A stretch of DNA of 33,794 nucleotides from Pseudomonadota bacterium (GTDB taxonomy: Bacteria > Pseudomonadota > Gammaproteobacteria > Burkholderiales > Rhodocyclaceae): contig JAGTRY010000033.1 of assembly GCA_018262235.1 (NCBI GenBank), positions 1 to 33,794 on the forward strand, read 5' to 3'. The notes below the pieces were generated by a model, which saw nothing but the letters and a program-made list of their open reading frames with translations, did not search any database and was not told the origin of the DNA. The translations under genes and the position numbers were made by a program. Shown here in pieces: positions 10,469 to 29,993 of the stretch. Each line of letters begins with the position of its first letter. The stretch's first letter is position 1.

Positions 10469-10529
10469 CGCGCGACAAGGGCCTTTGATCCACGATTCGC
10501 TCACCAAACCAACTCAACTGGAGTCAATC

Positions 10530-11918
10530 ATGAGTGGATCAACTCAAACGCCGCACAGTCTGGCGGCAAGTCTCGGAACCTGGCAACTGTGGGGCATCGC
10601 CGTCGGGCTGGTGATCTCCGGTGAATATTTTGGCTGGAGCTTCGGCTGGGCCTCGGCCGGCACGCTCGGCTTTCTGATCACCACCATCGCCGTGGCGCTG
10701 ATGTACGGCACCTTCATCTTCAGCTTCACCGAACTCACCACCAGCATCCCGCAAGCGGGCGGCCCCTTCGCTTACAGCTATCACGCCTTTGGCCCCACTG
10801 GCGGTTACCTCGCCGGCATGGCCACGCTGATCGAATTCGTCTTCGCACCGCCCGCCATTGCATTGGCCATCGGTGCTTACCTGAACGTGCAATTCCCCGC
10901 ACTGGATCCGAAGATCGCTGCCGTGGGCGCCTATATCGTATTCATGGCCCTGAACATCGCAGGCGTGACCATCGCGGCGACTTTCGAGCTGTGCGTCACC
11001 GTACTGGCCATTTTCGAACTGCTGGTCTTCATGGGCGTGGTCGCGCCGGGCTTCTCTTTCGCCAATTTTGCCAAGGGTGGCTGGTCGGGTTCCGACAGTT
11101 TCTCGCTGGCTTCGATCTCCGGCATTTTTGCCGCAATCCCCTTCGCGATCTGGTTCTTCCTGGCAATTGAAGGCGTAGCCATGGCCGCGGAAGAAGCTCG
11201 CGATCCGAAGCGCTCGATCCCGATCGCCTATACCGGCGGGATCCTGACCCTGGTTGTGCTGGCCATCGGCGTGATGGTGTTCGCCGGCGGCGCAGGCGAC
11301 TGGACCAAGCTCGCCAACATCAACGACCCGTTGCCACAAGCCATGAAAATGATCGTCGGCGAATCTTCCGGCTGGCTGCACATGCTGGTCTGGCTGGGCC
11401 TGTTTGGATTGGTTGCTTCTTTCCACGGCATCATCCTTGGCTACTCGCGTCAGATCTTCGCCCAGGCCCGCGCCGGCTACCTGCCCGGCTGGCTCGGTGC
11501 GGTGCATCCCAAGTTCAAGACCCCGCACCGCGCCATCATCGCCGGCGGCGTGATCGGCATTGCCGCCATCTTCAGTGATGAATTGCTGTCTTTCGGTGGT
11601 CAGACACTCACGGCCAACATTGTGACCATGTCGGTCTTCGGAGCTCTGCTGATGTACATCCTGAGCATGGCTTCGCTGTTCAAGCTGCGCATCAGCGAGC
11701 CGAACCTGACCCGTTCCTACAAGGCACCGTTCTTCCCGGTCTTCCCGGCCATCGCACTGGGCGGGGCCGTGATCTGCCTGATCACCGTGACCTGGTTCAA
11801 CCCGCTGCTGGCCGTTGTATTCGCCGGCATCCTGATGGCGGGGTATGGCTACTTCCGCGCCACCCACGCCCAGCGTGCGGCCGCGCCGATGGCGACTCTG
11901 GCGGCCGAGACCAAGTAA
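10530..11918 (+). CDS. eat: Ethanolamine permease
   Basis: A 462-residue APC-superfamily permease with about 12 membrane helices, beginning GTWQLWGIAVGLVISGEYFGWSFGW, the hallmark of the ethanolamine permease subfamily. It imports ethanolamine across the inner membrane for the ammonia-lyase encoded next. The start at 10530 is chosen because GGAG lies six bases upstream; an ATG at 10485 would add 15 unrelated residues. The 129-base gap to eutB holds no visible terminator, so an operon eat-eutB-eutC-porin is likely, probably switched on by the divergent EutR-like protein. Confidence 0.92.
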   Translation: MSGSTQTPHSLAASLGTWQLWGIAVGLVISGEYFGWSFGWASAGTLGFLITTIAVALMYGTFIFSFTELTTSIPQAGGPFAYSYHAFGPTGGYLAGMATLIEFVFAPPAIALAIGAYLNVQFPALDPKIAAVGAYIVFMALNIAGVTIAATFELCVTVLAIFELLVFMGVVAPGFSFANFAKGGWSGSDSFSLASISGIFAAIPFAIWFFLAIEGVAMAAEEARDPKRSIPIAYTGGILTLVVLAIGVMVFAGGAGDWTKLANINDPLPQAMKMIVGESSGWLHMLVWLGLFGLVASFHGIILGYSRQIFAQARAGYLPGWLGAVHPKFKTPHRAIIAGGVIGIAAIFSDELLSFGGQTLTANIVTMSVFGALLMYILSMASLFKLRISEPNLTRSYKAPFFPVFPAIALGGAVICLITVTWFNPLLAVVFAGILMAGYGYFRATHAQRAAAPMATLAAETK

Positions 11919-12047
11919 GAGGCGCAGACAACAGGTTCTGGCCTTGCCCGCCGCCTTGCCGTACCGCGATCTTTATCGGTGCGCCAGGTCAGAACCGTTT
12001 CGCGTCACGCCTATTTCAAACCTTCTAGACACTGGAGCCCGAGGAAA

Positions 12048-13445
12048 ATGCAGTATTCCGCCAGCGTAGGTGTCCGGCGTCATGTGTTCGCCGACCTCAA
12101 AACCTTGCTCGCCAAGGCCAGCCCGCTACGCTCCGGCGATCTGCTTGCCGGAATCGCCGCCGCCTCCGAGGAAGAACGGATGGCGGCCCGGATCGCTCTG
12201 GCCGAAGTCCCGCTGATGCATTTCCTGCAGGAAATGGTGGTGCCCTACGAAGCAGATGAGGTCACCCGCATCATCATCGATGAGCATGATGCGGCGGCTT
12301 TCTCGGTCGTGGCCGGTCTCACGGTTGGTGAGTTCCGCGACTGGCTGCTGTCGGACGCAACCGATGGCGTGGCCCTCGCTGCACTCGCCCCCGGCCTGAC
12401 GCCGGAGATGGTGGCTGCCGTCAGCAAGCTGATGCGCAATCAGGATCTGATCCTGGTGGCCGCGAAATGCGAAGTCATCACCCGTTTCCGCAACACGCTT
12501 GGCTTGCGCGGGCGGCTTGCCGTCCGCCTGCAGCCCAACCATCCGACGGATGACGCGCGGGGGATTGCCGCCTCGATGCTCGACGGCCTTCTTTACGGTG
12601 CAGGCGACGCGGTGATCGGCATCAACCCGGCGAGCGACAGCCTGCCCGCCATCACCACCTTGCTGCATTTGATGGACGGATTCCGCGAACAGTACGCGGT
12701 CCCCACCCAAAGCTGCGTGCTGACCCATGTCACCAACACGATCCGCGCCATCGAAAAAGGCGCACCGGTGGACCTCGTATTCCAGTCGATAGGCGGCACC
12801 GAAGCGGTCAACAGCAGCTTCGGGGTCACCGCAGCAATCCTTGAAGAGTCCATGCTTGCCGCGCGCAGTCTGAAGCGCGGCACGCTGGGTGACAACGTGA
12901 TGTATTTCGAAACCGGACAAGGCAGCGCACTCTCGGCCAACGGGCATCACGGAGCCGATCAGCAGACGCTGGAGGCGCGCGCCTACGGTCTTGCCCGGCG
13001 TTACCAGCCCTTGCTGGTGAACACCGTGGTCGGCTTCATCGGCCCGGAGTATCTCTATGACGGCAAGCAGATCATCCGCGCCGGCCTCGAAGACCACTTC
13101 TGCGGCAAGCTGCTGGGCCTGCCGATGGGCTGCGACATCTGCTACACCAACCATGCCGAAGCCGATCAGGACGACATGGATACCCTGCTCACACTGCTCG
13201 GCGTGGCCGGCATCAATTTCATCATCGGCGTGCCCGGCGCCGACGACATCATGCTCAATTACCAGAGCACGTCGTTCCACGACGCGCTCTACCTGCGCCG
13301 GGTGCTCAACCGGCGCCGCGCCCCCGAGTTCGAGGAATGGCTGGAGCACATGGGCATTGCCGATTACCACGGCGACTTGCTGCCCCAGACCGAACAGCAA
13401 CCCTTGCTGGCCATGGCAGGAACTAACTGGGGAGCGCACGCATGA
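12048..13445 (+). CDS. eutB: Ethanolamine ammonia-lyase large subunit
   Basis: A 465-residue catalytic subunit of the AdoCbl-dependent lyase that splits ethanolamine into acetaldehyde and ammonia. It is colinear with E. coli EutB: LRSGDLLAGIAAASEEER near the N-terminus, RLQPNHPTDD, GDAVIGINP, then YFETGQGSALSANGHHGADQ, VNTVVGFIGPEYLYDGKQIIRAGLEDHFCGKL and GDICYTNHAEAD-like segments that build the active-site barrel. The ATG at 12048 has GAGGA directly upstream and gives the family N-terminus; an in-frame start at 11979 adds 23 unrelated residues. Its stop overlaps the eutC start (ATGA). No cobalamin riboswitch was recognised in the upstream gap. Confidence 0.96.
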   Translation: MQYSASVGVRRHVFADLKTLLAKASPLRSGDLLAGIAAASEEERMAARIALAEVPLMHFLQEMVVPYEADEVTRIIIDEHDAAAFSVVAGLTVGEFRDWLLSDATDGVALAALAPGLTPEMVAAVSKLMRNQDLILVAAKCEVITRFRNTLGLRGRLAVRLQPNHPTDDARGIAASMLDGLLYGAGDAVIGINPASDSLPAITTLLHLMDGFREQYAVPTQSCVLTHVTNTIRAIEKGAPVDLVFQSIGGTEAVNSSFGVTAAILEESMLAARSLKRGTLGDNVMYFETGQGSALSANGHHGADQQTLEARAYGLARRYQPLLVNTVVGFIGPEYLYDGKQIIRAGLEDHFCGKLLGLPMGCDICYTNHAEADQDDMDTLLTLLGVAGINFIIGVPGADDIMLNYQSTSFHDALYLRRVLNRRRAPEFEEWLEHMGIADYHGDLLPQTEQQPLLAMAGTNWGAHA

Positions 13446-14260
13446 CGAAGAACCTCTGCACGCCGGATCCGTGGACCCGCTTGCGCAGTCTCACCAATGC
13501 CCGCCTGGCGCTGGGGCGCAGCGGCGTGAGCCTGCCCACCGCCGAGATCCTGCGTTTCGGTCTGGCCCACGCTCAGGCGCGCGATGCCGTCCATCAGCCC
13601 CTGGATGTCGAAACCTTGGCACACGCGTTCCAGATGGCCGGCTTCACCAGCCTGTGCGTTGCCAGCCAGGCACCGGATCGCGCCAGCTATCTGCGCCGCC
13701 CGGACCTGGGCCGGCGCCTCGCACCCGCCAGCGCAAGCCTGCTCCAGAACGTTGCCACCAGCCCCCTGCCACTGGTCTTCGTGGTCGCCGACGGGCTTTC
13801 CTCGCTCGCCACACACAGCCACGCTTTGCCGCTGATGCAAGCACTGCTGCCCTATTTTCCAGAGCTGCGCACCCTCCCGGTGGTGATCGCCACCCAGTCA
13901 CGTGTCGCACTCGGTGACGAAATCGGCCAATTGCTCCGGGCCAGGATGGTTGCGGTTCTGATCGGCGAGCGCCCAGGCCTGTCCTCGCCGGACAGCCTCG
14001 GGATCTACCTCACCTCCGGGCCACGTGTCGGTCTGACCGATGCCCAGCGCAACTGCATCTCGAATGTCCGTCCGGAAGGCCTGGTCTACCCGGAAGCAGC
14101 ACGCAAGCTCGCCTTCCTGATTGCCGGCGCGCGTCAACTCGGTCGTACCGGAGTTGATCTCAAGGATGACAGCGATGCGCCGGGCATTGCGCAATCCCCG
14201 GAAACGCCGGTACTGCCGGCCAACGAAGCCCCCTCACACCACACCGTGTGTGCCATTTGA
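13442..14260 (+). CDS. eutC: Ethanolamine ammonia-lyase small subunit
   Basis: A 272-residue small subunit that completes the cobalamin-binding site of EutBC. The N-terminal LRSLTNARLALGRSGVSLPTAEILRFGLAHAQARDAVH is typical, as are VVADGLSS, ERPGLSSPDSLGIYLTSGPRVGLTDAQRNCISNVRPEGL and the C-terminal KLAFLIAGARQLGRTGVDLKD. About 35 low-complexity residues follow the usual end. The start overlaps eutB by four bases, giving coupled synthesis of the two subunits. Confidence 0.95.
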   Translation: MTKNLCTPDPWTRLRSLTNARLALGRSGVSLPTAEILRFGLAHAQARDAVHQPLDVETLAHAFQMAGFTSLCVASQAPDRASYLRRPDLGRRLAPASASLLQNVATSPLPLVFVVADGLSSLATHSHALPLMQALLPYFPELRTLPVVIATQSRVALGDEIGQLLRARMVAVLIGERPGLSSPDSLGIYLTSGPRVGLTDAQRNCISNVRPEGLVYPEAARKLAFLIAGARQLGRTGVDLKDDSDAPGIAQSPETPVLPANEAPSHHTVCAI

Positions 14261-18193: not shown

Positions 18194-19420
18194 CTAGACC
18201 AAGCCAAGCCCCGGATCCACCTGGGGCAACAGCAGCGTGAAGGTACTCCCCTCGCCAGGGACGGAAACCAGATCAATCACGCCCCCCATATGCTCGGCCA
18301 GATCACGGGCAATGCTCAATCCAAGACCCGTCCCTTCGTAATTCCGGCTCATGACATTGTCAGCCTGCTGGAAGCGCTCGAATACCATTCGTTGTGCCGC
18401 TTCCGGAATACCCGGACCAGTATCCGAAACAGAAAATGCCAACAATCCGTCCAGCACATGTACATGCATGCCGACTTTGCCCTGGACGGTGTATTTGATC
18501 GCATTACCAAGCAGATTATTAAGAATCTGCCGCACCCGGACCGGGTCAACCACCATGCGGGCGGGCACCTCCCGGGCTATCGACATGGTGGCGCCCAATC
18601 CCTTTTCCTGAGCCTGCCGGGAATGTGTGGCCCATATCTCGGCGCACATTTCCGCCAGATCAATATCCTCAGGATGCAGTGCCAGCCGATCCACATTGAG
18701 TTTTGCCAGATCCAGCAGATCATTGAAAACAGCATACAACTGCCGTCCGGATGACAGTATCGTTTTCGCATACTCGTTTAATTCGCTGCCGGTGCTTTCG
18801 AGCTGCAGCAATTCCGCGAACCCGATGATGCTGTTGAGGGGGGTACGGACCTCATGGCTGATGGCAGCAATGAATTCACTCTTGCTGCGCGAAACCGACT
18901 CCGCGTGCTCACGAGCAGCCTCCAGCGCCTGGTTCTGAGACCGGGTCAGCTCTAGCAAGGCGCGACTGCGGGCATGATCAAAGCAGGCTTGGCAGGACAG
19001 GGCCAGGCGTGGCATCAAAGCTCGCAAGGCAGACAGGGAGGCATCGCTGGCCGGCACCTTGCCATGCTGGATGAACAGGCAAGCATGCCCACCTACTCGC
19101 AGGGCAGTGATCAGCCCGTCCCGGTAATCCAGCGGGACTGCCCCGTCGAAATGTTCAACCAGCAAGCTATCGAGCCGCTCACGCCATTCTGCTTCGCCCA
19201 GCCAGTCATCCAGGCTGCAGGCTGGATAGGCATGCCGTTCGATCCGGCCATCTTCCTGCCACCACACATGCACCGCACGTACATGCAAGCGCTGCGTCAC
19301 GATCACCAGAAAACGGTGCAGCATTTCCGCCAGATCCAGCGATGTGCCAATGCACATGGACAACTCACATTGCAGCGACAACAGGCGCACGGTTTGTGGA
19401 TCGCGATCAGGCATTTGCAT
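18194..19420 (-). CDS. Soluble sensor histidine kinase partnered with a FIST protein
   Basis: A 408-residue histidine kinase without membrane helices. The N-terminal 150 residues look GAF-like (sensor role inferred). A coiled coil (about 155-180) leads to the phospho-acceptor box SHEVRTPLNSIIGF with His189, then the ATPase boxes NLLGNAIKY (N), DTGPGIP (G1), FERFQQ (F) and GTGLGLSIA (G2). There is no receiver domain. Its start overlaps the end of the FIST gene by 14 bases (ATG 19420, or ATG 19414), so the two proteins are co-translated and probably form one signalling unit. No response regulator is adjacent. Confidence 0.92.
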   Translation of the reverse strand: MQMPDRDPQTVRLLSLQCELSMCIGTSLDLAEMLHRFLVIVTQRLHVRAVHVWWQEDGRIERHAYPACSLDDWLGEAEWRERLDSLLVEHFDGAVPLDYRDGLITALRVGGHACLFIQHGKVPASDASLSALRALMPRLALSCQACFDHARSRALLELTRSQNQALEAAREHAESVSRSKSEFIAAISHEVRTPLNSIIGFAELLQLESTGSELNEYAKTILSSGRQLYAVFNDLLDLAKLNVDRLALHPEDIDLAEMCAEIWATHSRQAQEKGLGATMSIAREVPARMVVDPVRVRQILNNLLGNAIKYTVQGKVGMHVHVLDGLLAFSVSDTGPGIPEAAQRMVFERFQQADNVMSRNYEGTGLGLSIARDLAEHMGGVIDLVSVPGEGSTFTLLLPQVDPGLGLV

Positions 19421-20606
19421 CAGGCATCAGCCCCAGAACAAAAGTTTTGTTGAAGAGTTCAAGGCTGTAATCCCCGGGATTGGCAATTTCTCCCAGCGTC
19501 AAGGCGCCAAAGATAGGTGTATGCGCCTGCCCGGCATTGACCAGCACAGCGTTTACAGCCGCCAGTTCCTCGCCGTAACCATCTTCGAGAAACAAGGCCC
19601 GGCCAATGCAGTCCACAAGCAGTGCCCCGGCCACGCCATGTCCCTGCGCCTGGACAATCTGGACCGCCTGCATGCTGCCCGTGCTGGCAGCCCGGATCAG
19701 CGAGGCCTCTTCACCACGCAATACATGCAGGCAAGCCTGGCTGGGCACATCACCCACACAGATCAGGGTGTCTCCATCCAGGATGATCGGATCGCGGACC
19801 ACAAAGGATCCGTCAAAGCGTTCCAGTCCAAACGGGTAGTTCTTGGCGATGCCAAAGAAATTCTCTTCTGTCAGGACCAGTCCGGCCAGGGGTTCCACGA
19901 CCTCGCGATACACCTCTGTCGCGGAACGGAAATCCAGAGAGCGGATTTCGTGCCCATGCGCTTCGGAAACAATGAAGGGGCCGGCCAGTGGCTCCCAGCC
20001 ATGCTCCACCCCCAGAACCATGCGCGTCGGCAAACCAACCACCAGTGCCGCCCCTTGTAACATGCCCCGATTGGAAAACAGGCACTCCCCTGTACTGAAA
20101 CTCAGCGACCCCGCACCTCCGCCGATGTAGCAGGGCTGCGCACCCAGCACATCAAAGACGGACTCCATCAGCGCAGAAATATGGCGCGCCAGCCCGTCCA
20201 CCCAGATCATCACCGTTCCACACTGGCGCAAAGCCGCATAGTGCGAAGCATTGTGTTCGAAGCCCTGTTCCACCTCGTCCAGCCCCTCCGCAATACAGAC
20301 ATCTGCGTGGCACGCCAGACCGATCACCAAAACTCCCGCTGCATGCATCTGCAGCCCCAGCACGATGCGCGGAAAGATTCCGCCGAAGACCGGGACAGGC
20401 AAGGCTTGCAGCATTTCATCCCATTCCTTGGGACAGAAGTCCGTTTCCTCGCCAACCAACATCAGCAAAGAGCGGGCACCGGCGGACAGCAGCCGGGCAA
20501 TGTGCGCCCGTACAGACGCCACATCGCCACGTTCCAGCAATTCGACGGGGGCTATGATCATAAAAGGGATCTCGGGGAAGGATGCTGCGGCGCCAAGAAT
20601 ACACAT
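19407..20606 (-). CDS. FIST-domain sensory protein
   Basis: A 399-residue protein with FIST N and FIST C domains (about 30-220 and 225-370), including GGGAGSLSF, an ENFFGIAKNYPFGL segment and the C-terminal GEIANPGDYSLELFNKTFVLGL. FIST domains are predicted small-ligand (for example amino acid) sensors tied to bacterial signal transduction. The gene overlaps the histidine kinase gene downstream. The start may instead be Met16 (base 20561, MIIAPVEL); neither start has a strong ribosome site. It is divergent from nifV, so the 204-base gap carries promoters in both directions. Confidence 0.85.
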   Translation of the reverse strand: MCILGAAASFPEIPFMIIAPVELLERGDVASVRAHIARLLSAGARSLLMLVGEETDFCPKEWDEMLQALPVPVFGGIFPRIVLGLQMHAAGVLVIGLACHADVCIAEGLDEVEQGFEHNASHYAALRQCGTVMIWVDGLARHISALMESVFDVLGAQPCYIGGGAGSLSFSTGECLFSNRGMLQGAALVVGLPTRMVLGVEHGWEPLAGPFIVSEAHGHEIRSLDFRSATEVYREVVEPLAGLVLTEENFFGIAKNYPFGLERFDGSFVVRDPIILDGDTLICVGDVPSQACLHVLRGEEASLIRAASTGSMQAVQIVQAQGHGVAGALLVDCIGRALFLEDGYGEELAAVNAVLVNAGQAHTPIFGALTLGEIANPGDYSLELFNKTFVLGLMPDANA

Positions 20607-22754: not shown

Positions 22755-23613
22755 TATCGCCACACCAACGGCTGCCCTCAGTGCAGCGACCTCTCCTTAT
22801 CTCACGCTCAAGCACGCCCATGCGCTGTTCTCGACCGCGCCCGAAGCGCTCAGCCTGGAGCAGAAACAGCAGGTCAGCGTGGTGGTGGCACGTCAGCGCG
22901 AAATCGAACGGCGCATTCTCAACAGCCCGCAAGCCGCACATGTCGTGGTCAACCAGGAGGCGATCACCCGCAGCGTGGCCGAAATTTCCGCGCGTTTCAC
23001 GACCGAAGCCGAATTCGTCTGTGATCTCGCCCGCTACGGCCTGACCCAACAGGCGCTCCGCGACGATGTGGAACGCGATCTGCGCGTGGAAGCCGTGCTC
23101 GAAGCCGTCTCGGCGCGGATTCCGCCAGTGAGCAACATGGAAACGGAGATTTTCTACCGCCTCCATCACGCCCGCTTCCAGACGCCGGAACGCCGGACCA
23201 TGCGCCATATCCTTGTCACCATCAATGAGGACCTCAAGGAGAATGGCCGCGAGGAAGCGCTTGCACGCATCGAACAGATCCACGCCCTGCTCAGCAAGTT
23301 CCCGGACCGCTTTGCCGAACAGGCTCTGCGCCACTCCGAATGCCCCACTGCCATGCAAGGCGGCCTGCTCGGCCAGGTGCAGCAAGGCCAGCTGTTCCCG
23401 GCACTGGATGCAGCCGCTTTCCGGATGCATCCGGCAAGCATTTCGGGCGTGCTGGAATCCCCGATCGGGTTCCACATCCTGCGCTGCGAGAACATCCAGC
23501 CGGCAGGCAGCGTGCCACTGGCCAGCGTGCGCGACCGCATCCGCGAGCAGATGCTCAAGACCCGTCGCGAGAACAAACAACGTGCCTGGGTAAAGAGCCT
23601 GTTGGCGCGCTGA
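22747..23613 (+). CDS. nifM: NifM, PpiC-type peptidyl-prolyl isomerase for NifH
   Basis: A 288-residue protein. The N-terminal helical part resembles SurA/NifM heads. The parvulin domain begins at MRHILVTINED (residue 152) and runs to GFHILRCENIQP (about 250). NifM is required for maturation of the Fe protein NifH. AGGAAG lies nine bases before the ATG at 22747; an upstream in-frame start at 22699 is inside nifZ without such a site. It is the last nif gene here. The 141 bases to the next gene contain no clear terminator. Confidence 0.93.
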   Translation: MSDIATPTAALSAATSPYLTLKHAHALFSTAPEALSLEQKQQVSVVVARQREIERRILNSPQAAHVVVNQEAITRSVAEISARFTTEAEFVCDLARYGLTQQALRDDVERDLRVEAVLEAVSARIPPVSNMETEIFYRLHHARFQTPERRTMRHILVTINEDLKENGREEALARIEQIHALLSKFPDRFAEQALRHSECPTAMQGGLLGQVQQGQLFPALDAAAFRMHPASISGVLESPIGFHILRCENIQPAGSVPLASVRDRIREQMLKTRRENKQRAWVKSLLAR

Positions 23614-23727
23614 CGGTGCAAAACCACGTCAGCCCAGCCGCCAAACTGGTGCATCCTTTACATCAGAACGCTGAAAAACGTCCAAAAATTTCTGTTTAGT
23701 TTTTGAAAATCAGGGCCTTGCAAACTC

Positions 23728-23743
23728 AGGCACGGGGTCTGCA
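23728..23743 (+). promoter_or_regulatory. Possible sigma-54 promoter before the NCS1-kinase gene
   Basis: AGGCAC-N5-CTGCA keeps the invariant GG and GC at the right distance, with two mismatches to consensus. The expected transcription start would fall at about 23754, directly at the annotated ATG, so either the message is nearly leaderless, translation starts further in, or the match is chance. Confidence 0.3.
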
Positions 23744-23754
23744 TCGTTTCGGGG

Positions 23755-26700
23755 ATGAACCCGAGCGCCGAGCCCCAGCACAGTGCACAGCCCGCCAGCA
23801 CCGATAGCGACGCGATCCAGCGCGTGGTGAAGGTGCGGCGCGACTACAACACCTGGGTCGCCAACGAAAGCATCGAAGACTACGCCCTGCGTTACACCCC
23901 GAAGAGCTTCCGCAAACTCTCGGAATGGCAGGTCGCCAATACAGCTTTCGGCGCGGCCGCGTTTCTGGTGCTGGAAGCCGTCGGCGCGACCCTGCTGGTC
24001 AATTACGGCTTCACCAATGCCGCGCTGGCGATCCTCGCCACGGGGCTGATCATCTTCCTGTGCGGCACGCCGATCAGCCTGTATGCCGCCCGCTACGGGC
24101 TGGACATGGACCTGCTCACGCGCGGTGCCGGCTTCGGTTATATCGGCTCGACCATCACCTCGCTGATCTACGCCAGTTTCACCTTCATTTTCTTCGCCCT
24201 CGAAGCGGCAGTGATGGCCTATGCGCTGGAGCTCGCCTTCGACATTCCCCCTGCATTGGGCTACCTCCTCTGTGCCCTGGTGGTGATTCCACTGGTGACC
24301 CACGGCGTCACCATGATCAGCCGCCTGCAGCGCCTGACCCAGCCGGTCTGGCTGATCCTGCTGGCCCTGCCTTTCGGTTTCGTCCTGGCAAAAAATCCCG
24401 GGGTGCTGGGCGAACTGGCCGGCTATGCCGGCAGCAAGGGCGATGGTGCAGGTTTCAACATGCATCTGTTCGGTGCGGCACTGACCGTGGGCATCGCACT
24501 CATCACCCAGATGGGCGAACAGGTTGATTACCTGCGTTTCATGCCGGCACGGACTCCAACCAATCGCAAGCGCTGGCTTGCTGCCGTACTTGTCGGCGGG
24601 CCGGGCTGGGTGGTACTGGGCGTGGCCAAGATGCTTGGCGGTTGCCTGCTGGCCTATCTCGCGATCCGCAACTCGGTGCCTATTGATCGTGCCGTCGACC
24701 CCAACCAGATGTATCTGGTGGGCTTTGAATCGGTGTTTTCGCATCCGGGCTGGGCGATAGCAGCCACGGCAAGCTTCGTGGTCATCTCGCAGCTCAAGAT
24801 CAACGTGACCAATGCCTATGCCGGGTCACTCGCCTGGAGCAACTTCTTCGCGCGCCTTACCCACAGCCACCCGGGCCGCGTGGTCTGGATGGTGTTCAAC
24901 ACTGCCATCGCGCTGATGCTGATGGAACTGGATGTATTCCAGGCACTGGGTCAGGTGCTGGGGCTGTATTCGAACATTGCCATTTCATGGCTGGTGGCCG
25001 TGGTGGCGGATCTCGTGATCAACAAGCCGCTGGGGCTCTCGCCACCGGGCATCGAATTCAAACGCGCCTATCTTTACGACATCAATCCGGTCGGCGTCGG
25101 CACCATGCTGGTCGCTTCCACCCTGTCGATCCTGGCCTATCTGGGCGTGTTCGGGGCCGATGCGCAGGCCTTCACATCTTTCATCGCGCTGGGCTCGGCG
25201 CTGATCTCCTCACCGCTGATTGCCTGGGCCACCGGCGGCAGGTATTACCTGGCCCGCCACCCGAGTGAGCCAAGCAGCAGCGGCACGCATCGCTGCGTAA
25301 TCTGCGAGCGCGAATACGAGGGGGAGGACATGGCGCACTGCCCCGCCTACCAGGGCCAGATCTGCTCGCTGTGCTGCTCGCTGGATGCCCGCTGCCACGA
25401 TCTGTGCAAACCCGATGCCCGCCTCTCCGCGCAGTGGCAGGCAAGCATGCGGCGCTTGCTGCCCAAGCCGATGTGGCCGTATCTGGATACCGGAGTCGGC
25501 CACTATCTGTTGCTGATGGCCGTCATCGTCACGGCCCTGATAGCGCTGCTTGGCATGCTTTACTACCAGCAACTGCAGACACTTGCCGACGCTGTCCTGC
25601 TGCCCGCCCTCCGGCTGGTCTTCATCAAGGTGTTCTGCGTGTTGTTGCTGGCCAGCGGCATCATCGCCTGGTGGCTGGTACTGACCCACAAGAGCCGCCA
25701 GGTTGCACAGGAAGAATCCAACCGCCAGACCCATCTGCTGATGCGCGAAATCGCCTCGCACCAGCTCACCGACGAAGCCTTGCAGCAAGCCAAGAAAGTA
25801 GCGGACGCGGCCAATCAGGCGAAGAGCCGCTACATCACCACGATCAGCCACGAGCTGCGCACACCGCTCAATTCCATTCTCGGCTATGCGCAGATCCTCG
25901 ATGGCGATCCGACCATCCCGACGCATCGCCAGCAGGCCATCAAGGTCATCCGGCGCAGCGGCGACCATCTGCTCTCGTTGATCGAAGGCACCCTGGACAT
26001 CGCCCGCATCGAAGGCGGCAAACTGACGCTGGATGTTCGCGCGCTGGATTTCCGCGAACTGCTGCAGCAGCTCACCCGCATGTTCGAGCTGCAGGCCGGC
26101 AACAAAGGTATCGCCTTCCGCTTCGAACACGCCCGCGAGATTCCCGCCGTGGTGCGGGCCGACGAAAAGCGCCTGCGCCAGATCCTCATCAACCTGCTGG
26201 GGAACGCCGTCAAATTCACCCGGCATGGGCATGTCACGTTCCGCCTGAATTACGCACGCGACATGGCCAACTTCGAGATCGAGGACAGCGGCCCCGGCAT
26301 CGCGGCAGAAGAAATCGAGCGCATCTTCGAGCCCTTCTCGCGCGGCGGCTCAGGACAGCAGGCCGGCGGCACCGGGCTGGGCCTGACCATCGCCCGCATG
26401 CTCACCGACCTGATGGGGGGCGAACTCAAGGTCAGGAGCGAACCCGGCCAAGGCACCTTGTTCACCGTGCGCCTATTCCTGCCCCAGGTGCACTCGGCGC
26501 AGGCCGCGCGCGAATTGCCACGCCGGCATTACACGGGTTACACGGGCGCGCGCCGGCGCATCCTGATCGTCGATAACGAAGCGGTTGATCGCGAACTGCT
26601 CGCCAGCATCCTCGCCCCGCTCGGCTTCGAGCTTGATCAGGCTGCCTCCGGCATCGAATGCCTGGAAGTACTGCCACGCTTCCAGCCGGACCTGATCTTC

Positions 26701-27210
26701 ATGGATCTGGCCATGCCCGGCATCGATGGCTGGGAGACGATCCGCCGCATCCGTGCCGGCCATCTGTCGACAGCACATATCGCCATCATCTCCGCCAATG
26801 CTTTCGACAAGGGTCTGGACAACGATGCCGGCATGGATCCGCAGGACTTCATCCTCAAACCGGTGCGCGTGGCAGAATTGCTCGACTGGATCGGCAACAA
26901 GCTGCAGCTGGAATGGCGAGAAGATCCTGCCGGGGCGACGAGCGCCCTGGAACGCCCGGCCACACCCCGCTCCGGCGAGGAACCCGGGTCCAGCCATGCG
27001 CCACCCCCGCGTGCCCTGCTCGAAGCACTCGCCCAGCAGATCAAGCTCGGCTATGTGCGTGGCATTCACGGCGTGCTTGACCAGATCGCCGCGCACGATG
27101 CGGGGCACGCCGGCTGGGTTGCACAGCAACGGGAATGGCTCGGCCAGTTCGATTTTGACGCCATGAACAACGCTCTCAAGAGGAGTCTGGATGCCGCCCC
27201 TGAATCTTGA
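23755..27210 (+). CDS. NCS1-type permease fused to a hybrid histidine kinase
   Basis: A 1151-residue fusion. Residues about 28-500 are a full NCS1-family permease (family substrates are cytosine, uracil, allantoin, hydantoin, thiamine) with about 12 helices, entered by [25 protein letters not shown] linker (512-553) holds eight cysteines: 514, 517, 529, 537, 540, 541, 547 and 551. Two more helices (about 583-603 and 620-645) and a coiled coil lead to the kinase: [11 protein letters not shown] with His699, [26 protein letters not shown] receiver follows (about 933-1045, phospho-acceptor Asp984 in FMDLAMPG), then a helical tail. It probably senses transport or binding of a nitrogen compound and passes phosphate on. 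The ATG has a poor ribosome site; a GTG about 24 codons in is an alternative. It overlaps the regulator gene by 20 bases. Confidence 0.93.
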
Positions 27211-28126
27211 CCGCACAAGTGCCGATCTGGTGCTGATCGTCGACGACGTACCGGACAACCTCTCGGTACTGCACGATGCGCTGGATGAATCGGGCTTCAC
27301 CGTACTGGTCGCGATCAATGGCGAATCCGCCCTGGCGCGAGCCCGCCAGAGTCTGCCGGACATCATCCTGCTCGACGCGATGATGCCGGGCATGGATGGC
27401 TTCGAAGTGGCGCGCCGGCTCAAAGCCGATTTTTCCACACGCCATATTCCGATCATCTTCATGACCGGGCTCACCGAGACCGAACATGTGGTCGCAGCCT
27501 TCAATGCAGGGGGCGCCGACTACGTGACCAAGCCGGTGCGCACCGGCGAGGTGATTGCCCGCGTGCACAGCCACCTGGCCAGCGCACGGCAAATGAAACA
27601 GGCGCGCAGCGCACTGGATGCCTTCGGCCAGGCCACCATCGCGGTACGCCCCGAATCCGGCCGGATCACCTGGCAGACCCCGCTGGCGCGGCGCCTGCTC
27701 GCAAGTTACTTCGACGGCGAATACGAACACGCCCCGTCGGCGATCCTCAACTGGCTGAGCACCAGCAGTCCCTCCGGCACCAACGCACTCCCGCTGAACA
27801 TCGTGCGCGAGAGTCGCCGCCTCATTCTCACCCTGCATGACCAGACCGCCGATGGCGAATGGCTGCTGGTGCTGCGCGAAGAAAACGATGCTGCGCAGAT
27901 CGAGACCCTGATCGCCAGTTTCGGGCTGACCCGCAAGGAAGCCGAGGTGCTGTACTGGGTGAGCCGCGGCAAAACCAGCCCGGATATCGGCGAGATCCTC
28001 GGCTCCAGCCCGCGTACCGTGAACAAGCATCTCGAACACATCTACGAAAAGCTCGGCGTGGAAACCCGCACGGCCGCAGCCAATCTCGCCCTGAACCGCT
28101 TGCATGCGGGCCCCTTGCAGGAGTGA
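27191..28126 (+). CDS. LuxR-type response regulator of the NCS1-kinase system
   Basis: A 311-residue response regulator. The receiver (about 14-130) has IVDD and the phospho-acceptor Asp62 (LLDAMMPGMDGF) and the conserved KPV. A middle segment of about 100 residues (about 135-235) resembles no domain I can name. The C-terminal LuxR/GerE HTH spans about 243-305 (LTRKEAEVLYWVSRGKTSPDIGEILGSSPRTVNKHLEHIYEKLGV). It begins inside the kinase gene with AGAGGAG six bases upstream, so the two are translationally coupled and very probably cognate partners. Target genes are unknown. A terminator follows directly. Confidence 0.92.
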   Translation: MPPLNLDRTSADLVLIVDDVPDNLSVLHDALDESGFTVLVAINGESALARARQSLPDIILLDAMMPGMDGFEVARRLKADFSTRHIPIIFMTGLTETEHVVAAFNAGGADYVTKPVRTGEVIARVHSHLASARQMKQARSALDAFGQATIAVRPESGRITWQTPLARRLLASYFDGEYEHAPSAILNWLSTSSPSGTNALPLNIVRESRRLILTLHDQTADGEWLLVLREENDAAQIETLIASFGLTRKEAEVLYWVSRGKTSPDIGEILGSSPRTVNKHLEHIYEKLGVETRTAAANLALNRLHAGPLQE

Positions 28127-28228: not shown

Positions 28229-29341
28229 TCAGAGCAACTGTTCGGCCGGCGTGCAGGGCAAAGCCAGCGCTTCGGCCACTTCCGGCCGGGTCAGCTTGCC
28301 TTGGCAAACATTCAGGCCGTTGCGCAAATGCACATCGTCACGCAGGGCCGCCTTCCAGCCTTTGTTGGCCAGCGCCAGCGCAAACGGCAGCGTGGCGGCG
28401 TTCAGGGCATAGGTCGAGGTCCGCGCTACGGCGCCCGGCATGTTGGCCACGCAATAGTGCACCACGCCGTCAATGACAAAAGTCGGTTCGTCATGGGTCG
28501 TGGCTTGCGATGTCTCACAACAGCCGCCCTGGTCGATCGCCACATCGACGATCACCGAACCGGCCTTCATCTTCGGCAGCATTGCGCGGGTAACCAGCTT
28601 TGGAGCGGTCGCGCCCGGAATCAGCACGGCCCCGATGACGACATCGGCACTGCAAACCGCGGCTTCCACCGTATCCCGATTGGCATGAACCGTCTTGACC
28701 TGCGTACCGAACTGGGCCGCCAGACGACGCAGTGCCGCCGGGCTGCGATCCAGCACCGTCACGTCGGCCCCCATTCCTGCCGCGACAAGTGCCGCGTTGC
28801 TGCCGACGATGCCGCCGCCCAAAATCACGACCTTGCCCGGCGCGACACCCGGCACGCCGCTGAGCAGCACCCCGCTCCCACCGGCCGCCTTCTCCAGGCA
28901 ATGTGCGCCAGCCTGCACGCTCATGCGCCCGGCCACTTCGGACATCGGTGCCAGCAAGGGCAGCGAGCCATCCGCGGCCGTCACGGTTTCATACGCAACG
29001 CATACGGCACCACTGGCCAGCAGCGCTTTGGTCTGCTCGGGATCCGGCGCAAGGTGCAGATAGGTAAACAGCAGTTGGTCCGCACGCAGCATGGCACATT
29101 CTTCCGGCTGCGGCTCTTTCACCTTGACGATCATCTCGGCCTGCTCGAACACCTCTTTGGCACTCGCCAGGATCCGGGCGCCCGCTGCGCGATAGTCATC
29201 ATCGGAAGCGCCAATGCCCAGACCGGCGCCTTGCTCGACCAGCAACTGATGACCCTGTGCCACCAGTTCGCGCACGGATGCCGGCGTGAGGCCGACCCGG
29301 TATTCGTGATTCTTGATTTCCTTGGGGACGCCAACAAACAT
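28229..29341 (-). CDS. ald: Alanine dehydrogenase
   Basis: A 370-residue NAD-dependent enzyme that deaminates L-alanine reversibly to pyruvate and ammonia. The N-terminus FVGVPKEIKNHEYRVGLTPASV contains the substrate-binding Arg15. VKVKEPQ and LHLAPD carry the Lys and His of the active site. The Rossmann motif is GGGIVGSNAA, and the end GLNVCQGKLTRPEVAEAL is typical. The start at 29341 is chosen because GGAG lies seven bases upstream and the family begins M(x)(V/I)GVPKE; a start at 29362 adds seven residues. It is divergent from an Lrp-type regulator, a common pairing for alanine-inducible ald genes. Confidence 0.95.
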   Translation of the reverse strand: MFVGVPKEIKNHEYRVGLTPASVRELVAQGHQLLVEQGAGLGIGASDDDYRAAGARILASAKEVFEQAEMIVKVKEPQPEECAMLRADQLLFTYLHLAPDPEQTKALLASGAVCVAYETVTAADGSLPLLAPMSEVAGRMSVQAGAHCLEKAAGGSGVLLSGVPGVAPGKVVILGGGIVGSNAALVAAGMGADVTVLDRSPAALRRLAAQFGTQVKTVHANRDTVEAAVCSADVVIGAVLIPGATAPKLVTRAMLPKMKAGSVIVDVAIDQGGCCETSQATTHDEPTFVIDGVVHYCVANMPGAVARTSTYALNAATLPFALALANKGWKAALRDDVHLRNGLNVCQGKLTRPEVAEALALPCTPAEQLL

Positions 29342-29452
29342 GATCTTGCTCCATTCATTCAAGGTGATTGATAAAAGACACGGCCCCTACAGAGATATTC
29401 AATGTTTTCTCTTAAATTAGCAGAGGATAAGCAAATACTATCGATCATCAAA

Positions 29453-29531
29453 CAGTGAATTTCACTGCAATAAAGCTAAAATTCCCGCCTATGTAGTGAA
29501 TAATCCATCCCGCTACTTCAAAGACAGTGAA
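29453..29531. promoter_or_regulatory. Candidate Lrp/AldR operator region
   Basis: CAGTGAA-T-TTCACTG (29453-29467) is a perfect palindrome in the gap between ald and the Lrp-type gene. The half-site AGTGAA recurs at 29495-29500 and 29526-29531, i.e. 41 and 31 bp apart, close to four and three helical turns. A TAAAAT (29477-29482) next to the palindrome may be the -10 of the regulator. Confidence 0.55.
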
Positions 29532-29993
29532 ATGATCGAACTCGACAAGACGGACCTGAAAATCCTCCAGATCCTGCAGCGTGAAGCCCGCATCCCGATC
29601 ACCGAACTGGCCCAGCGCATCAGCCTTTCGGCCACGCCTGTCAGTGACCGTGTCCGGCGTCTGGAACGCAACGGCGTCATCACCGGATACCACGCCCGCG
29701 TAGCCCCCCAGGCGCTTGGCTTGCGGATCCTGGTATTTGTGGAACTGCGCCTGGCGCAAAAATCCTCGGAGATTTTCGATTCGGTCAAACGCGAACTGGC
29801 CCACGTCCCCGAAGTGCTCGAATGCCATCTGGTTGCGGGAGAGTTCGACTATCTGATCAAGGCCCGCATTCCCGACATGCGGGACTACCGCGATTTGCTG
29901 GGGCGCATCCTGCTCAAGCTGCCGATGGCGATGGAGTCGCGCAGTTACGTCGTCATGGAAGAGATCAAGGAAAGCCACATCCTGGGTCAATGA
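29532..29993 (+). CDS. Lrp/AsnC-family regulator, probably of ald
   Basis: A 153-residue Lrp-type protein. The N-terminal HTH (LDKTDLKILQILQREARIPITELAQRISLSATPVSDRVRRLERNGVI, about 2-50) is followed by the RAM ligand-binding domain (about 62-145), which typically binds an amino acid. The start at 29532 matches the family's MIELDKTD; a GTG at 29496 would add 12 residues. Divergent from ald, with phased half-sites between, so an alanine-sensing activator is the best guess (AldR-like). No terminator before the next gene was seen. Confidence 0.88.
   Translation: MIELDKTDLKILQILQREARIPITELAQRISLSATPVSDRVRRLERNGVITGYHARVAPQALGLRILVFVELRLAQKSSEIFDSVKRELAHVPEVLECHLVAGEFDYLIKARIPDMRDYRDLLGRILLKLPMAMESRSYVVMEEIKESHILGQ

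Follow-up and report, generated by a model that had tools for sequence, protein, structure and literature searches.

Two kinds of transporter-kinase fusion come closest in design to the system reported here. In CbrA/CbrB and CrbS/CrbR, of the SLC5-STAC type, transporter, linker and kinase lie in one chain (described for CbrA in a passage of PMC13022988), CrbS, a hybrid kinase, is paired with a regulator, and the context is histidine or acetate. In Ks-Amt5 of an anammox bacterium, an Amt fold serves as the sensor of a kinase for ammonium (passage in PMC5764959), and a passage of PMC12918730 describes its regulator as not yet identified. We analysed a 33,794-nucleotide contig of a Rhodocyclaceae bacterium (Pseudomonadota; JAGTRY010000033.1, assembly GCA_018262235.1), called the window below, which encodes a hybrid histidine kinase with a transporter-like membrane domain (the sensor) and an overlapping LuxR-type response regulator. 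Like CbrA and CrbS the sensor has transporter, linker and kinase in a single chain, like CrbS it is of hybrid type and has a regulator as its partner, and like Ks-Amt5 it joins a nitrogen-source transporter fold to a kinase. It differs from CbrA and CrbS in having an NCS1-like core rather than SLC5, an eight-cysteine linker and helix pair apparently in place of STAC, and relatives surrounded by urea and formamide genes. GrtK/GrtR of Burkholderia glumae, also a membrane kinase and regulator that respond to nitrogen waste, was considered as a known equivalent and rejected, since the passage in PMC12918730 gives it 427 amino acids, a PilS-like six-helix sensor and a Fis-type regulator, an unrelated architecture. 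We propose, with a probability of about 0.72, that the window's sensor is a receptor for urea or short amides built on an NCS1-type fold, acting through its eight-cysteine domain on a regulator that governs how urea is taken up and hydrolysed. The proposal is drawn from sequence, namely how the protein is built and how well this is conserved, which genes surround it, a recurrent palindrome, and the association of sensor and palindrome across genomes.

The two genes and their domains are arranged as follows.

23755 to 27210, + strand: hybrid histidine kinase with an N-terminal NCS1-like membrane domain (ATG start, 1151 amino acids)
23755 to 25269, + strand: NCS1-like permease domain, residues 1-505 (Foldseek top matches Mhp1 and CodB, and homologues)
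25294 to 25407, + strand: eight-cysteine domain, residues 514-551, C-x2-C-x11-C-x7-C-x2-CC-x5-C-x3-C
25492 to 25674, + strand: two extra helices, residues 580 to about 640 (predicted structure)
25819 to 26019, + strand: HisKA, residues 689-755, phospho-acceptor His699 (Pfam)
26161 to 26481, + strand: HATPase_c, residues 803-909 (Pfam)
26560 to 26886, + strand: receiver (Response_reg), residues 936-1044, Asp984 (Pfam)
26929 to 27207, + strand: C-terminal tail, residues 1059-1151, outside any Pfam family
27191 to 28126, + strand: LuxR-type response regulator of 311 amino acids (open reading frame) with receiver (Asp62), central region and LuxR/GerE helix-turn-helix

HisKA, HATPase_c and a receiver beside a separate regulator make up the layout of a hybrid histidine kinase two-component system, and the regulator carries Response_reg at residues 14-125 and GerE at 246-300 (Pfam). 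A sequence-only reading of this DNA had described a Cys-rich linker with two extra helices, a kinase, a receiver and a tail in one protein, had noted a 20-base overlap with a LuxR-type regulator gene and had named His699, Asp984 and Asp62; all of this held, the 20 shared bases by the coordinates of the two frames, the linker by its eight counted cysteines, the helix pair by the predicted structure and the three residues by their positions in the sequence. The cysteines are residues 514, 517, 529, 537, 540, 541, 547 and 551; they are invariant in 63/63 aligned close homologues, and the motif is present in 56/56 phylum-sample loci (L124-L179, see below). The domain had no Pfam match, and the linker, where a STAC domain would stand, matched none of the models in the Pfam library used above chance. 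In the predicted structure, the second extra helix appears to continue into the long helix that precedes the kinase.

The fusion is widely conserved. Our first set comprised 83 loci: that of the window, two on plasmids and 80 on genome contigs. All 83 had a member of the sensor cluster; several of these loci are truncated at contig ends, and the frame of L050 is broken. A member of the regulator cluster was present in 77. We then sampled 398 Pseudomonadota genomes evenly, the window's included, and 52 of them, again with the window's, carried the membrane domain. Excluding the window's own locus, this gave 57 sampled places, 54 of which had an open frame of 1026-1365 amino acids with a same-strand regulator downstream. 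Two others (L170 and L175) are shorter kinases with open frames of 894 and 899 amino acids, the former lacking a receiver by Pfam, and the last (L180) is a distant permease without a kinase. At L170 (7609-11419), the receiver-less fused kinase (885 amino acids) stands beside a 416-amino-acid receiver-plus-kinase protein, with formamidase nearby; here the same sensor is wired in a different way. The window's genome has a single copy of the sensor at E <= 0.001. An assembly artefact joining two genes, which the sequence-only reading had named as a way in which it could fail, is unlikely in view of sensor-cluster members in 83/83 loci, and the co-occurrence of kinase and regulator that it had asked to be checked among homologues is seen in the 54 places above. 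We regard both the fusion and the LuxR-type regulator gene that overlaps it as confirmed.

The gene neighbourhood points to urea and formamide. Clustering of naive open frames was dominated by spurious frames in GC-rich DNA, and codon-scored calls with a tblastn panel of urease (ure), urea ABC transporter (urt) and formamidase (fmd) proteins were used on the loci instead. Panel genes lay near the sensor, within the fetched stretches, in 54/57 sampled loci (35 with urt and fmd, 8 with ure and urt, 5 with urt, 4 with ure and 2 with fmd); two of the three misses were cut at contig ends and the third was L180, the 30%-identical kinase-less permease. By comparison, such genes were carried by 0/20 control stretches, which were taken from other parts of these contigs in 20 sampled genomes. 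Among close homologues, urease and/or urt genes were found in 53/80 fetched flanks. In plasmid loci, the genes that the sensor faces are urease genes in Mitsuaria, urt-formamidase-nitrilase genes in Burkholderia vietnamiensis, urt-formamidase genes in Klebsiella, and urt genes in Shinella and Sinorhizobium. The Klebsiella plasmid locus (L091, 8494-13369) has the sensor and the urtA gene of a urea-formamidase cluster in divergent orientation, a palindrome (see below) between them, and a regulator homologue after the sensor. The window's genome carries urtA'BCDE-ureDABCEFG on another contig (C41), which begins within urtA; no formamidase match was found in this genome, in a search whose empty result carries little weight. 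A role tied to a nitrogen source, as the sequence-only reading had suggested, is supported.

The kinship of the membrane domain had to be sought in structure. Residues 1-510 gave no match to the Pfam NCS1 family (PF02133) even at E <= 10, and sequence searches of the PDB with the membrane part alone, a profile and two relatives gave no convincing relative. A whole-protein single-sequence fold was unusable (mean predicted local distance difference test, pLDDT, 41.3) and was discarded. A model of residues 1-686, built on an alignment of the window's sensor and 62 homologues (63 sequences), had a mean pLDDT of 78.8 and a predicted template modelling score (pTM) of 0.78. Its five best solved-structure matches in Foldseek were Mhp1 and CodB chains (E 2.1e-8 to 4.2e-6), and the next other protein followed at E 1.4e-4. 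Sodium/solute symporter structures (sialic acid, iodide) scored worse; an SLC5 membrane domain thus had neither a Pfam match nor the preference of Foldseek. Relatives intermediate in sequence point the same way: a kinase-less relative at 46% identity had a weak match to a model of cytosine permease (E 2.9e-4, well short of that model's cut-off), and L180 (29-30% identity, no kinase) matched PF02133 at 3.6e-9 as well as an NCS1 subfamily model. Since Pfam failed while the fold and the intermediate relatives agree, our NCS1 label denotes fold and remote kinship. Of the earlier claim of a complete NCS1-type permease, the predicted fold and the intermediate sequences stand, and a Pfam match to NCS1 does not.

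The putative pocket was mapped by alignment to Escherichia coli CodB, whose contacts were taken from a passage of PMC9379551; at about 20% identity this alignment is uncertain outside the anchors Asp258-Arg261 and Asn350-Tyr355. Asp258, Arg261, Asn350 and Tyr355 pair with identical CodB residues. CodB Gln105 corresponds to Thr143, Trp108 to Phe146 (Phe in 30/37 sequences, Leu in 6/37), and Asn280 to Asn350 (37/37), while Glu150, also constant in 37/37, lies opposite Mhp1 Gln121 by our own residue count. The ring-stacking Phe204 of CodB is replaced by Leu249, which is Leu in 37/37 and 63/63 sequences of two alignments; in a third, the distant L180 carries Ile. Of the two aromatics that sandwich the base in NCS1 proteins, one counterpart (Phe146) is therefore retained and the other lost, and the Na2-site threonines of CodB (Thr278/Thr279) are likewise not found, their places being taken by Lys348/Ile349, which makes sodium coupling as in CodB unlikely. 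The sensor thus resembles Mhp1 and CodB in fold and in four identical CodB residues, and differs from them in its changed sodium site, its loss of one stacking aromatic, its fused kinase and its lack of a PF02133 match. A pocket with one stacking ring lost and a constant Glu and Asn would seem more suited to a small polar amide than to a base.

These data bear on the ligand that the sequence-only reading had preferred, a nucleobase, hydantoin or allantoin, in which case the pair would be a transceptor for such a compound and the nearby urea genes would merely process its catabolic end product. The nearest folds are indeed those of hydantoin (Mhp1) and cytosine (CodB) transporters, and paralogues are annotated as allantoin or cytosine permeases. 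Against this stand the urea and formamide neighbours in 54/57 sampled loci and the replacement of Phe204 by Leu249; furthermore, the annotated plasmid loci, whose gene tables are incomplete, name no purine, hydantoin or allantoin genes besides the permeases; the tblastn panel, made up of ure, urt and fmd proteins, bears on those three kinds of gene. We consider such a ligand very unlikely.

Ten loci with kinase-less paralogues of the membrane domain were read, and in 7/10 the paralogue lay within a urease operon or near formamidase or amidase genes. It is part of a urease operon in Klebsiella and on two Acinetobacter plasmids, it adjoins formamidase in Moraxella and Tsukamurella and, in Arthrobacter U41, an amidase. 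The Methylovirgula paralogue shares one cluster with formamidase, sensor, regulator and amidase. The annotated cytosine or allantoin permeases inside urease operons at L220 (8956-10563) and L094 (5663-7270) are likely to be urea or amide permeases. In Acinetobacter baumannii L219 the sensor and the permease are divergent, their matches lying about 220 base pairs (bp) apart. A shortened Cys motif is retained by several paralogues; the pattern used found none in L223, L224 and L225. In a tree of membrane domains, nine kinase-less paralogues formed one clade beside two non-hybrid kinases, and because the outgroups were too long to root it, the tree leaves undecided whether a kinase was gained or lost.

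The urease-operon paralogue of Acinetobacter is identical to the sensor at Thr143, Phe146, Glu150, Leu249, Gln252, Lys348 and Asn350, and this sharing of seven mapped pocket and ion-site residues points to a common small-amide ligand. It thereby argues, as do the NCS1 transporters at the top of the fold matches, against a second explanation, that what the protein senses is ammonium or overall nitrogen status, or an ammonia-shifted pH, and that it regulates the urea genes in response to this rather than to urea itself. In favour of this explanation, nitrogen control of urea use is common. Ammonium is known to be sensed by an Amt-kinase fusion (the passage in PMC5764959 cited above). On balance we judge this explanation unlikely. 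The same seven residues favour a variant of the urea/amide proposal in which the membrane part is a working urea or amide importer and the transport cycle, not occupancy, drives the kinase, since the Acinetobacter protein that shares them stands alone, without a kinase; transport and kinase activities of CbrA are moreover named together in the title of PMC7096432. The Lys348/Ile349 substitution speaks against this variant in a CodB-like, sodium-coupled form, as does the presence of urea ABC transporter genes on C41 of the window's own genome, and we hold it as a tentative possibility at less than even odds.

A candidate operator came from the DNA between the sensor and the urt or fmd genes, where the palindrome ATACGyCAnnTGrCGTAT recurs. 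In 56 upstream regions (L180 was dropped) every 4-mer dyad with a gap of 0 to 12 was enumerated, and the strongest, TACG-N8-CGTA, occurred upstream of the sensor in 30/56 loci against 0.15 expected from Markov shuffles, many of the 30 loci being near relatives. A matrix built from 28 distinct sites scored at least 19 in 35/56 regions (the 30 training loci and 5 new ones), while in 398 kilobases of control stretches one palindrome, read on both strands, reached 19. When ten further loci were scanned, six not used for building had matrix sites: the sites lay inside the sensor-urtA gap in the Klebsiella plasmid (L091), Shinella (L092) and B. vietnamiensis (L002), 95 bp before urtA in Sinorhizobium (L093), in the gap that separates the stand-alone permease from the sensor in A. 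baumannii (L219), and before both fmdA and an aliphatic amidase gene in Methylovirgula (L226). No score reached 12 in L094, L220 and L221, which have a stand-alone permease and no annotated sensor. Upstream of urtA in the first set, a relaxed consensus of 12 positions was matched in full in 11/15 regions, at 11 positions in three and at 9 in one; in the nearest relative (L004) the site lies at -106. Two other dyads found ahead of the sensor in close-set loci, AGGT-N7-ACCT and AAGA-N11-TCTT, were set aside since they resemble conserved urease coding sequence.

To compare sensor and site across genomes, we used 250 genomes of the order and called the urtA type at E <= 1e-120, a threshold that the urtA fragment of the window's genome does not reach. 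This urtA type was present in 68/250 genomes and the sensor in 42/250, with 22 having both (Fisher p 2e-4). The site, at 11 or 12 of 12 positions, lay upstream of urtA in 8/22 sensor-bearing genomes and in 0/38 examined sensor-less ones (Fisher p 1.2e-4); at 12 of 12 the counts were 6/22 and 0/38 (p 0.0015). Related genomes are not independent, and at least G582 seems to be already represented by L043, so these p-values serve as guides only. Where sensor identity to the window's was 70% or more, the site was found in 7/8 genomes, and with other sensors in 1/14.

Several observations weigh against the proposal of a urea or amide receptor with this operator, and gene neighbourhood alone is not proof of a ligand. 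In the fetched flanks of 27/80 close homologues, some of them on short contigs, there are no ure or urt genes. No urea or amide gene is near the paralogue in Streptomyces L222 and Arthrobacter L224, and the A. baumannii L219 stretch had no urease, formamidase or urtA match. Residues that would separate urea-type from formamide-type loci were sought, and none was clean or convincing. As to the operator, 14/22 sensor-bearing genomes lack the site before this urtA type; three site-less genomes (G170, G249 and G255) have formamidase-type loci with the site at their own cluster. No matrix score reached 12 in L001, which has a sensor and urease. In the close set the relaxed consensus was matched at 11-12 of 12 positions upstream of the sensor in 10/77 regions (1.5 expected), many urease-type relatives being without it. 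The window has no palindrome upstream of the sensor, its best matrix score anywhere being 6.7, and in its genome the relaxed pattern occurs at 15 places, not above a reversed control. Since C41 starts inside urtA, the predicted site at the urtA promoter would fall outside the assembled sequence and is not seen in this genome.

In the window the sensor follows nifV, nifW, nifZ and nifM, its start lying 141 bp behind the nifM stop, and the sequence-only reading took this placement as a regulatory link to fixed nitrogen. That the pair regulates nitrogen fixation genes in this organism would also accord with the nif/urea island of Dechloromonas aromatica, in Table 4 of which (part of PMC2907700) a 1131-amino-acid histidine kinase and a 308-amino-acid receiver protein stand just before urtA. 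From size and place we infer that this pair belongs to the same sensor family, and the table suggests that nif and urea genes may have shared an island for a long time in this group. The nif genes do not travel with the sensor, nifM, nifZ and nifV (at least 40% identity) being found in the fetched flanks of 0/80 close homologues, and the 6.7 ceiling on matrix scores covers the nif region of the window as well; regulation of nif genes is thus highly improbable and the earlier link is not supported. No sigma-70 promoter was found in window 23400-23900. Elsewhere in the window, an alanine dehydrogenase gene divergent from that of an Lrp-type regulator lies just behind the sensor pair (28229-29993), a FIST-domain protein gene overlaps a downstream histidine kinase gene beside nifV (18194-20606, - strand), possibly as another sensor-kinase pair, an amino-acid-type permease precedes the ethanolamine ammonia-lyase genes eutB and eutC (10485-14260), a second small-amine nitrogen pathway, and the end of a P-type ATPase gene is followed by a MerR regulator (112-1805).

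The proposed urea/amide receptor could work as follows, the ligand, transport, phosphotransfer, DNA binding, direction of regulation and coupling role of the Cys domain being parts of the model. The ligand would be urea, to which sister clades would add formamide or comparable short amides; bound in the transporter core it would alter the conformation of the membrane domain, and this change of shape would be relayed by the cytoplasmic eight-cysteine domain and the added hairpin of helices, reaching the kinase at its dimerisation helix. From His699 the phosphate would then move, either directly or over Asp984 in a four-step relay, to Asp62 of the co-translated regulator, which in its phosphorylated form might bind the palindrome and turn on urtABCDE and ureABC, or elsewhere fmdA, the amidase or the stand-alone permease paralogue. 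The activating direction is suggested by analogy with fmdCABDEF of Methylophilus methylotrophus, whose formamidase and urea/short-chain amide uptake genes are induced by formamide and urea according to a passage of PMC10781810. This cluster combines the same kinds of genes as the sensor loci, and the passage names no sensor; the window-type system is a candidate sensor for fmd-like clusters, Methylophilus itself lying outside our comparison.

Other reports touch on the same genes. Part of a paper on Ectopseudomonas guguanensis mentions a LuxR-type two-component system by the urtABCDE operon, which by its place probably belongs to this family. A 2026 preprint, cited from a passage, treats an acquired Klebsiella cluster of urea transporter and formamidase genes, possibly other than that of L091 (PMC13060141); by term count its main text contains neither 'histidine kinase' nor 'two-component'. 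The matched passages of an Azospirillum two-component survey name no urea or permease link. Among the literature matches listed, with subscription papers largely outside them, there was no description of this fusion, its function or such a membrane sensor.

We lean, by a little, towards a broader view that these proteins form an undescribed class of transceptors, NCS1-fold urea/short-amide kinases with a metal-binding-like eight-Cys coupling domain and an operator of their own, and that their kinase-less sisters are a new family of urea/amide permeases, sensing and transport having been traded between the two. If the proposal is true, transporter-kinase fusions would extend beyond SLC5 and Amt, some permeases now named for allantoin or cytosine would be misannotated, and the sensor would offer a scaffold for a urea or amide biosensor. 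Substrate induction of urea and formamide use has already been reported (the passage in PMC10781810), and the pair described here is a concrete candidate for a urea/amide sensor with a predicted operator.

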